In this document: piece after piece, positions 37,301 to 43,300 of the stretch
Numbering within the stretch: position 1 is the stretch's first letter
How the letters are laid out: each line of letters opens with the position of its first letter
Assembly: GCF_037893015.1 (NCBI RefSeq)
Contig: NC_133666.1
Span: 466,575,642-466,639,641, forward strand
Length of the DNA stretch: 64,000 nucleotides
From: Macrotis lagotis
Taxonomy: Eukaryota; Chordata; Mammalia; Peramelemorphia; Peramelidae
Direction: 5' to 3'
The notes under the pieces: generated by a model
What the model saw: only the letters and a program-made list of their open reading frames with translations
Database searches by the model: none
What the model was told of the DNA's origin: nothing
Position numbers and translations under genes: made by a program

Positions 37301-40300
37301 TGATGCTTTGAGTTCTAAACCTACAATCCTGTGATTCTCTGAGGATATAGAATGAACTTTCCTAAAAATTGCCTCTATGCAAAAATCAAAAAATAAAAAC
37401 CACAAGGCTGGTAAGGGAAAATGGAGTTAGAGGCACAAGATCCAAAAACTTTTATTAGTGACAACAAAAAGATAAGAACTTTTGAAAAGTGGTAGCACAA
37501 TTTTATACCTATTAAATGGTTAAGAAATGCATAATTATAAATAAATGGGGTGGGGAAGTAGGGAGCATGACTAAGTTGGAATTACATGTCAAGAAGTTGG
37601 AAAGGGCTGCAACCATGGGAAAATTATAGAATGGATGCCAACCAGCCCTCCTCCATCCACAGCTCCTACTATCCCAGAAAATAACAATAAATGGGGCACT
37701 TTACCTTGAAAGGGGGCTGACTTCTACATGTGCATATGGACCCCAAACTTAATTCCTTAAGAAATCCCCACACTACCACATATTGGGTTATACTTTACTT
37801 TGGTGGGGGTTGGAGTGGAGATTGTTCCACTCATACTACCTCCTTTTTCCCCAGTGGTTCTCACCTCATTCCCGATTGAAGAAGATGATCACACCCCAAC
37901 TGTCAGCAAGTGCAGAAGTACTTAATCAAGATATCTCCTTTCTCCATGGGCTCAAAGCATGCTGGTGGCTCCTCTTCTCCCGTCCCTTAGTCTATCCATT
38001 GAAGTCTTCCTATGACAGAGACAAACAGTGGGAAAATAATTGCAGCTTCTATATTATTGTGAAGTGCATCTCTTGAGGATGAAATGACACCTAAGCAAAT
38101 AATAAATTCTAATTATCTTCAAACTATTCCCTAATGCATCAATTGTACTAGAACAAATTCAAGTTTTCAAAATATTGAAGTTTTCAAATCAAGTGCAATT
38201 AAAACCGACTATATGTGTGTGTGTGTTTGTATATATGTATATATATGTATATATATATATAGTTTAAATAGAGATTTTTAATTTCCCTTTCAAAAAGTTG
38301 TATTTATGCCTTTTGTTATTACATAACGTCATTTCTACATCAATCCTATCCCCTACTTCATCCTTATAATGAACTCACCTTTTAATAAAAGAAAATGGTT
38401 CAACCTAAATAGTGTCTCTCTACTAAGAGATGGGAAGAATGTTCCCTTCTTTATTCTCTAGCAATTGTAATTAGTCATTACTCTTATAATTTGACTTCCC
38501 TTTAAGTGATTTTTTCTTGACTTTTTAGCAAATACTAGTATGTATTGTTATCATAATTTTACTTTCCTAACTGCATTAGTATATGTATATGCTATATATC
38601 TTCTCATTTTTCTATTTTTTGTCTTTTCTTATTGAACAATAATATTCTTTTATATCCATGCAGCATAGTTTATTCAGCAATGGATACTTTGTTTAAGAGA
38701 ATTTTTACATCCTATATATCTATAATTCAAATGAAATTATCATTTCTGTAACAAAATTATACATTTATGAGTTAATAAAGTTACGGTCCTTACTATTTTA
38801 GTAGTAAGTACACCTGGATTGATGTTCTATATTTCATTCCATTTGTACTTTGATAATCTGATTTACTTTTCCTATTCAAACTATATTCTGGCACAACTTT
38901 GAATGTTCCTGCAAAGAAAAAGAATAACTTTGAATGCAGGAGACTTAAAAATCACTTCAAATAGAACTCTACTAAATAGTAAGTCCTTGAAAAGAAATAT
39001 TTAGTTCTATGAATATCATTATAAACAACTAAATATGTATTGTCGTGTCAAGGGCATGGAATGGATCTTCATTAGTAACAAAAACATAGCATTTATAAAA
39101 AATTTTCAAGCATAAATGAGGATGGGATTTAATGGTCATACAGAGATCATGGAGAGCTGTCCATCTAGTTTCCAGATGAAATAAGAACAAATTGTGAAGG
39201 GCTTTAAATTCTAAAGAGGAGTTCATAATTTGTTTAGGATGAAATGCCAATAAAGCTTCTTGATCAAAGGAGTAAAATAGTTAGACCTGGACTTTAAACT
39301 TTAAAAATAAACATTTAACTTTTATTTGGAGGATGAACTAATCAGTGAAGAAAGAAAAACCAATTAGGAAGTTACTGCAGAAGACCAGACCAGAGGTGAC
39401 AAAGGCCTGCACATTTGCACACACTTGAATGTGTGGGTGGGTGGGTGGGTATGTGTCACACTCAGAGAGAGAGAATAGGCAATACTTCAGCCTAAGCACC
39501 CATAGAGATTTCAGTACTATCCCCATCCAGTTCCTTTTTTTCCTTAGGATGAAATGTCTAGATCTTCTCCTAATACCTTTGAGAAGGTTATCAAGCTGCA
39601 AAAAGGTCAAGCACTTTAGATGCCTCTGTCTGCCTTTCAATCTCATCATTTATTCTAAACTGGTTTTTCGGAGTAATGAACTCTTTAGATTTTTGCAAAG
39701 CAAATGGGGTTAAGTGGCTTGCCCAAGGCCACACAGCTAGGTAATTATTAAGTGTCTGAGACCAGATTTGAACCCAGGTACTCCTGACTCCAAGGCCGGT
39801 GCTCTATCCACTGCGCCACTTAGCCGTCCCTCTTCCTATATACTTAATGATCTCAGTATCTCCCTTGGATTTGATTATCATCTCTATGCCAATGATCCTC
39901 TTTCTATACCTTCAGATTCTCCTAGCCGCCCCAGTAATGAACTCTTAATTGCCAAATCCATTTAACTTTTCTTAATCCTCTACTTTCTTGACCTTTTTGA
40001 AGCTTTTGTTACTACAGATCACCCTCTTCTTAATACTCTTCTCTTAGTCTCCTGGTTCTCTTCCTACAATTCTTCTCATTCTGATTTACTGGATACTCAT
40101 CCAGGTCTTACTTGTGATCTCATGGTGTGTCACATAGGGCCTTGTCTTAGACCCTCTTCTCTTCCTATATACTTTTTTTTTTTTAGATTTTTCAAGGCAA
40201 TGGAGTTAAGTGGCTTGCCCAAGGATACACGGCTAGGTAATTATTAAGTGTTTGAGGCCGGATTTGAACTCAGGTACTCCTGACTCCAAGACCGGTGCTC

Positions 40301-43300
40301 TATCCACTGCCCCACTTAGCTGCCCCTCTTCCTATATACTTATTGATCTCAGTATCTCCCTTGGATTTGATTATCATTTCTGTGCCAATGATCCTCTTTC
40401 TATACCTTCAGATTCTCATCTCTGACTGCCTTTTGATTATCTCAAAATAGATATCCTTCAGATATCTTAAATTCAGCATGTCCAATCTGAATCCTTTATC
40501 TTATCCACCAAACCCTTTCCTCTTCCTAGCTTCTGTATTGTTAAGGATGTCTGCATTTGTAATATCTTACAAATACACTCCTATCTGTCCTCTGGCATTG
40601 CCACCATCCTGGTGCAGGTCCTCATCACCCCACACCTAGCTTGTTATTATACCCTCTGCTGCTTGGTCTGTCTGTCCAGTCTCCCCACTCCAGTCAGTCC
40701 TCCACTTAATTGTCAGATAGGAGGAGCAGAGCTGACAGTGTCACCTCCCATGTTCAATATATTCTACTGGCTCCATCTTATATCCATGAGCAATTATCAG
40801 ATCCTCTGTTTAGCATTCAAAGCTCTTCACCCCACTTTAAGCTTCCTAGACCATCTCTGTATCTACATGTACTCACCCTCTCCTCCCCACCCCTTATATA
40901 CTCTTGAGTGACACTGACACTCCAGCTCCCAGTTTCATCCCTCCTTTGTCTTTTCTCTGGGCTTACTTCAAGGGCCCATTTAAACTCCCTCCTGAAGAAA
41001 TCTTTTTCTAGTCCCCTTTCCTCCCACCTTCCTTCTGTTGATGATTTTCATTTCATTCTGTATATATATCTTATATGTGCATAGTTTTTCACATGTTATC
41101 TTCACATTACATTGTGAGTTCAAGAGCAAGAACTCTTTTACTTTTTTTCTGGCCTTTTCATTTAGCCTAGGTCTGGCACATGGTATGTACTTAATACATG
41201 TTTATTGATTTACTCCTTAATTTAGAATTATTCAATCTCACCTTAACTGGTTTGGAGCAGAGACAGAAGATAGGTTTCTGGCATCCTACATGAGAACTCT
41301 CAGATCATTTTACTATAGAATCTTCATTTTATAAATTGGAAAGATTCTTCACTCTTATACTTAAGTTTGCTATACTTAATCATATTTATTATATTATATT
41401 ACTCTGCTTCTGACCCATTTAGGGTAATGGAAGCAAAGTATATCATAATAGACCTAACTGCTCTTTTTGTAATTTTTAGAGGAAAGGACTTTCTGATTTC
41501 CCAAAAGTAACTTTCATACTAACTCTTTTTGAATAGAGATGATAATTGAATCCACGTGAAGCAATGAGATCATCATAGTATTTAGACAGATGAGAGGAGG
41601 ACCCAGGATAGAGCCTAAGGGACACCCACAATTAGTGGGCATGATCTGGATGAAGATCCAGCAAAGGAGTCTGGAAGGAGTGATCAGACAGGTAGGATGA
41701 GTGTCAGGAAAGAATAATGTCACAAAAATTGAGAGAAAGGAGTCTCAAGAAGAAGAGGGTGACCAACAATTTCAGAGATTCAGGGAGGTCAGAAGGAATG
41801 AGAATTGAGAAAAATCCATTAGATTTGGCAATTTAAAAAATCATTGGTAACTTTAGAGACAGCAGTTTTTAAAGGATATATTCTGAAGGAGTACAACTGA
41901 GAGTGAGGAAGAAAAGAGGAGAAAGGCAGTTTAGTCACAAAAAGAAAGAGATATAGCCATAGCTAGTGGGAATGAGCAGATCAAATGAAGGATTTTTTTT
42001 TTGAAAAAGGATTAGGGAGATAAGGAAGTATTTGTTGGCAATAGGGAAGCAGCTAGTAGACTGGGAGAGATTGAAGATTAGTGAGAGTGGCAGTGATAGC
42101 ATAAGAAATCTTCTGAAGAAGGCAGAATGGAATAATTTTATTTGTGTAGGTAGAGGGCTTAACCTTGGAAACAGTCCACCTGTTCATATGAGATTGGAGT
42201 AGAGTAGATCGTGAGGAAAGATGTGTGTGATGTCATGTGAGTGAAGCCTTAGAGAATGGCCTCAGTTTTTTCATCAAAGTATGAGGCAAGTTTCTCACCT
42301 GAGAGTGTAGAGGGTGTGTTGGTGTGTCATTGGAAACTTGAGAAGGGATGAAAAAGTTGGAATAGTTCTCTGATGAGTGAGAAAATGACTTGGAGGTGTA
42401 AAAGTACTGCTTTGCTGCATTGAGGGTCTAGTTGGAATTATGTAAGGCAAAATTTTAGTGGATCCAGTCAGTGCAGTTTTATAATCTTTTTTCCAGCGTC
42501 ATTCAGTAAACATGAAGGACAGCAAAGGTAGCAGATGGAGGAAATAATTCAGAGATATGATTTGGACTTGGCAAAACATGATAGATGATAAGTTAAGGAA
42601 GCAAGGGACATGAGTTTAGACAATGCTGTAGAGTTTAATTGAGACACCAAGGGTCAAGATAGAGAAAGGGCAGAGTGCAGGCAAGAGAGAGGTGATGACC
42701 TGAGAAAGAATTGAGGGATTAGAGGTATTGAGTGGGGGTTAATGGTGAGGATGAAGATTCAAAATGGAATGAAGGTTATGGGGATGGAGTGATTATGATT
42801 AGATTGTAGCTCACAAATATGTAAAAGGAATATGTGTGGGTAAAATTCTGGGTGTTGGCAAGACCATCTCTTTTGGTAGCTAAAGTAGAGTTTAGGAATA
42901 GGGTACAGTAATGCAGTAGATTGAGGAACTAAGAATTTAGGGCATTTGAAGAGTATACATACATATACATACATACATACATACATACATACATACATAC
43001 AAATATATAGGGGTTCTCTAGTAGAATGGCTCAAGAGTCAGTAAATAACAATTTTCAGATTTTAAAATTTTAAGATGGTTAGAAAAATGGAACTTAGGTT
43101 TGGTGACACATATGTATAATACTTAATGCTGGACATATTGGTTAATTAAGTTTGTTATTCTGAACTGTAGTAAAGCTAAAATCTAATATGTATCCAAACT
43201 GAGCCCCCCATCAATGCAGTGAGCTCCTAGGATTAAAAGGCTGCCAGATATCTGAGGATGGGCAAAACCATACAGATTAGAAAAATGAGCCAGTTAAAAC

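Follow-up and report, generated by a model that had tools for sequence, protein, structure and literature searches.

A SINE carrying the flank of a neighboring SINE: a probable mosaic formed by local DNA copying

Two SINEs between the exon pieces of a RAB12-like gene

The window, i.e., the whole 64-kb stretch of DNA that was analyzed, appears to contain part of a RAB12-like gene on the plus strand. Two pieces (25255-25362 and 55379-55519, +), about 30 kb apart, match Rab12 chains best and belong to the Ras family, and the two SINEs described here lie between these putative exon pieces. The region at 23379-24668 (about 1.3 kb), upstream of the first RAB12-like piece, is made up of degenerate tandem repeats of purines (AGA and AGG types), and long open frames of low complexity occur there in several frames.

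Both SINEs are taken to lie, in the same orientation, inside one old element. We take this host element, as well as the piece of its sequence that was copied, to be an L2, and the SINE is presumably WSINE1, a marsupial CORE-SINE. The WSINE1 family has been described (PMC3403934). We have called the SINE that carries the extra piece D (recipient) and its neighbor P (putative donor), and their features are the following:

39672-39685 (-): target repeat on the 3' side of D, AAGAGTTCATTACT in the sense direction, identical at 14/14 positions to 39933-39946
39686-39932 (-): D, the recipient SINE insertion as a whole chimera, 247 nt with the insert
39686-39818 (-): SINE of D, nt 13 through the tail, related to the copies at 50850, 56488, and 57985 according to alignment columns 66 and 79 and the bootstrap
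39819-39830 (-): inner SINE head of D, 12 nt, GGGACGGCTAAG, P-like and contiguous with the flank of P
39831-39920 (-): L2 segment in D, 90 nt, matching the 5' flank of P and holding the 16-nt target repeat of P minus one base shared with the SINE head
39921-39932 (-): outer SINE head of D, GGGGCGGCTAGG, the last G being common with the L2 side (1-nt overlap)
39933-39946 (-): target repeat on the 5' side of D, pairing with 39672-39685
40159-40174 (-): target repeat on the 3' side of P, exact 16-mer
about 40175-40325 (-): P, the putative donor SINE with an A-rich tail, majority state at columns 66 and 79, five private substitutions
40326-40417 (-): putative donor L2 flank upstream of P, beginning with the 5' target repeat of P, the first base of which might be part of the SINE head

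D lies within its own target repeats, since AGTAATGAACTCTT flanks it at both 39672-39685 and 39933-39946 (14/14), as the initial annotation had stated for the insertion at 39686-39932. P is flanked in turn by CTCTTCCTATATACTT at 40159-40174 and 40326-40341 (16/16). The two loci share a direct repeat of 224 nt with 92% identity (39698-39921 and 40194-40417), the start-to-start spacing being 496. The minus-strand insertion sites in the reconstructed empty sites are ATT/AAG for D and AAT/AAG for P. They resemble the LINE-1 cut motif, given as TT/AAAA in PMC13174262, which fits two ordinary insertions, and D and P are probably two ordinary SINE insertions driven by LINE-1.

The insert in D and the kinship of its SINE body

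Read in sense, D shows the order target repeat, 12-nt head, L2, SINE, tail, and target repeat, and the succession of head, L2, and SINE had been described correctly before. The alignment of the L2 pieces at 39830-39921 and 40326-40417 gave 3 differences in 92 positions, confirming that about 90 nt of L2 in D are nearly identical to the 5' flank of P. A third copy of the 16-bp target repeat of P sits inside D (39830-39845), which ties the L2 piece of D to the flank of P. The copied piece crosses the boundary between the SINE of P and its flank in register, target repeat included, so that in D the L2 piece continues into the inner SINE head just as it does in P.

The insert amounts to 102 nt (90 nt of P-flank L2 plus the 12-nt P-like head) and is placed after nt 12 of the SINE. 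Without these 102 nt, D is a 145-nt SINE that directly adjoins its own target repeat, and this remainder aligns with no internal gap to the stretch given for the copy at 56488 and with two small gaps to the copy at 50850. The insert is joined to D within SINE homology on one side and bluntly, or with a 1-nt overlap, on the other. The latter, the head-L2 junction (GGGGCGGCTAGGAGAATCTGAAGG), was found once in the 64-kb window when 24 nt were searched with up to 3 mismatches, and 0/100 shuffles gave matches. The own head of D and the donor flank have a single common base, G, at this junction, where microhomology longer than 1 nt is absent, so no particular route is favored. Splicing of the SINE head to the L2 piece was rejected, since the usual splice acceptor is AG, whereas the copied piece is preceded in the flank of P by AT (or by TG, should the shared G be counted with the head).

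To place the SINE of D among its relatives, D and P were aligned with 12 other copies, all from this one window. There were 19 matches to D, including D and P themselves, and five of them (27824, 26551, 52110, 50212, and 20485) were dropped as too divergent (70-73% identical). The bootstrap used 2000 replicates and 11 candidate copies, leaving out the partial copies at 58172 and 35638. At columns 66 and 79 the states of D are found in the same three of the 11 other copies with letters there (57985, 50850, and 56488), and P has the majority state at both. In addition, a one-base T at column 137 is present in D, in these three copies, and in one more, and is missing in P. Along columns 66-149, D is separated by 10/82 substitutions from P and by 4, 3, and 2/83 from these three copies. 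In the bootstrap of these columns one of the three was nearest to D in 99.0% of the 2000 replicates, P being tied nearest in 3/2000 and sole nearest in none. Compared with the consensus of the three copies over columns 37-149, D has 1 substitution and P has 10. The states at columns 66 and 79, the distances, and the bootstrap make it most unlikely that the SINE body of D is a copy of P. That the two bodies are of different kinds is missing from the initial annotation. The exact SINE stretch with the column-79 kin state had 0 matches in viral_contigs, a viral collection that says nothing on a host repeat.

The outer head of D lacks the AAG variant of P (column 20 A), and its 12 nt are identical to those in the head of copy 50850. 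In the inner head the A at column 20 is common to P only, being found in 0/10 other copies. At columns 26 and 36 D agrees with P against the three-copy consensus, but these states also occur in other copies and prove little. D and P disagree at columns 12, 14, 25, and 45: the state of P is private to P at columns 25 and 45, that of D is private to D at column 12, and the other copies split 5 to 5 at column 14. These differences may be later changes, or the stretch copied from P may stop short of column 25. Within D, the P-like sequence gives way to its own between SINE nt 11 and 57 (columns 20-66), and the first part of 39686-39818 may be P-derived. In the bootstrap of columns 10-65 the nearest to D was P in 36% of replicates, copy 58274 in 27%, and copy 50850 in 24%, none of them clear, and thus the P-like inner head rests on flank continuity and one unique site. 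Its P-like character is shown in part.

Substitutions between D and P are 3/92 in the L2 piece vs. 10/82 in the body (Fisher p = 0.040). The same contrast gives p = 0.063 when the 5' part of the SINE is pooled with the L2 and 0.11 when CpG columns are left out, and as a stand-alone proof it was discarded as weak. P must predate the patch. It has five private substitutions and D has two, one of them in the body, which hints that P might be the older insertion. With a single private change in the body of D and three differences in the L2 pair, there are not enough sites to order the patch and the insertion in time.

Local DNA copying and the alternative explanations

D contains a segment copied from beside P and a SINE body that is not that of P, and since the body is not that of P, D reads as a mosaic with a 102-nt insert. 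In the account that we consider likely, a 145-nt SINE with its own target repeats was patched by DNA-level copying from P, at the end of the insertion of D or later. D, being of another kind than P, would have inserted on its own with its 14-bp repeats. A break or a stalled fork would have occurred in its head, and the end on the body side would have paired with the similar SINE of P, 496 bp off. Extension would have copied the first SINE nucleotides of P and then 90 nt of its L2 flank, until the extended end dropped off the template and was joined to the first 12 nt of D itself with a 1-nt overlap or none. A single event of this sort would yield the structure of D. The route could be gene conversion that was concluded by end joining, or else a template switch during replication. 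Both predict the same sequence, and the break, the route, and the timing of the patch relative to the insertion are steps that we infer.

Local gene conversion or template switching is expected to leave such a footprint, with a junction in SINE homology and a nearly blunt one. A homologous donor is near by (496 bp, direct orientation), and the recipient is a hybrid in which the P flank and the P-like head, the latter through one unique site, accompany a kin-like body. The initial annotation had proposed template switching during insertion as one possibility, which is right in kind. The separation of only a few hundred bases, and the fact that a complete SINE remains once the insert is set aside, would suit DNA as the template better than RNA.

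There is also a variant of DNA copying in which the patch was made during the insertion of D itself, with target-primed insertion copying neighboring genomic DNA. The unfinished SINE cDNA end would have paired with the DNA of P, been extended over its flank, and then gone back to complete the 5' end. This sequence of events seems rather improbable to us, and, if true, it would mean that target-primed insertion itself copies adjacent genomic DNA.

Reverse-transcriptase template switching at insertion is an unlikely explanation, although it agrees with the clean target repeats around the whole chimera. The enzyme would have passed from a D-kind SINE RNA to an RNA across P and its flank and back to the 5' end of a SINE RNA, the chimeric cDNA becoming D. 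The LINE-1 enzyme has been proposed to generate chimeric insertions through such switching (PMC13174262), and the body of D (1 private change) and the L2 pair (3/92) both look young and may be of one age. However, two jumps with a return are needed, as are a landing 0.24 kb from the source of the RNA and an RNA across P that is antisense to the plus-strand RAB12-like gene, and the DNA route would require none of these.

The 5' transduction suggested by the initial annotation, i.e., a transcript begun upstream of P that carried the flank and the SINE of P and inserted as D, would explain the order of flank and SINE and the full target repeats. Nevertheless, we regard it as very improbable. A daughter should carry the source element as well as the flank, and at columns 66 and 79 the body of D shows the states of its kin, which contradicts this origin unless the body was overwritten later. 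The distances given above (10/82 from P vs. 2-4/83 from the three copies) are likewise those of another kind of SINE. In the pre-mRNA of the plus-strand RAB12-like gene, both SINEs would be antisense, and it could not provide a transcript running in sense from the L2 into the SINE. Moreover, the flank is not outermost in D, since a 12-nt SINE head lies outside it, which is not expected of a single upstream transcript, and this outer head is also without the column-20 variant of P. The landing 0.24 kb from the source would remain unexplained as well.

A segmental or tandem duplication, or an unequal crossover between D and P, is suggested by the direct SINE copies 496 bp apart and is equally hard to credit: a crossover would double the whole stretch between the SINEs, and only the 90-nt flank and the head are doubled, while the outer head and the target repeats of D are present. 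Least probable of all is a standing SINE subfamily with the head-L2-SINE structure, in favor of which nothing was found, as the head-L2 junction occurs once in the window and the target repeats of P within the L2 account for its L2 flank.

Relation to known systems and other repeats in the window

Local copying between neighboring SINEs is already a known kind of event, of which D is most likely a fresh example. According to PMC8230782, which refers to earlier work, Alu conversion acts within about 10 kb and declines with distance, and the same article reports partial conversion in 38/52 reconstructed AluS/AluY loci, producing mosaic elements. As in that partial conversion between Alus, where a SINE is recognizable as a hybrid of two subfamilies, D is a hybrid; unlike the change described there, which stays inside the element, the copying in D ran into the donor flank, with a gain of 102 nt. 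Work on mammalian cells (PMC5104497) has reported gene conversion that terminates aberrantly, in which the second end is rejoined through microhomology or added nucleotides and template switches occur. The likeness to D is homology-driven copying followed by end joining with little or no homology, although that work describes a reporter, kilobase tracts, and the sister chromatid, whereas in D about 0.1 kb would come from a neighboring repeat, as deduced from natural sequence.

The short-range template switches of great apes (PMC7954356) likewise bring in a short templated change from near by, but the donor of D is about 0.5 kb off and in direct orientation, and one junction lies in repeat homology. 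The chimeric insertions and 5' transductions of LINE-1 (PMC13174262) resemble D in being chimeras within one target-repeat pair; they are attributed there to RNA ligation or to reverse-transcriptase switching between RNAs, whereas the extra piece in D matches neighboring DNA and lies inside the element. Among the literature matches listed, none described a natural SINE patch carrying donor flank. D would be a readable natural footprint of copying between neighboring SINEs that overran into unique flank. It passes for a 5' transduction at first, and the states of the SINE body tell the two apart, suggesting that catalogs of transductions and chimeric insertions may contain such patches.

Other repeats were observed elsewhere in the window. 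A 150-nt unit occurs twice in tandem at 5881-6179 (+), inside a 233-aa open frame that gave no Pfam match at E 0.001. A 225-aa open frame at 13661-14338 (-) contains the LINE-1 ORF1 domain Transposase_22 (E 6.9e-12). In the SINE at 58160-58412 (-), the 3' part is partially duplicated in tandem. A patch of 15 nt in the first of the two copies, CAGGCCAGATTTGAA, is inverted: it is the reverse complement of TTCAAATCTGGCCTG in the second copy and looks like the product of a hairpin template switch.
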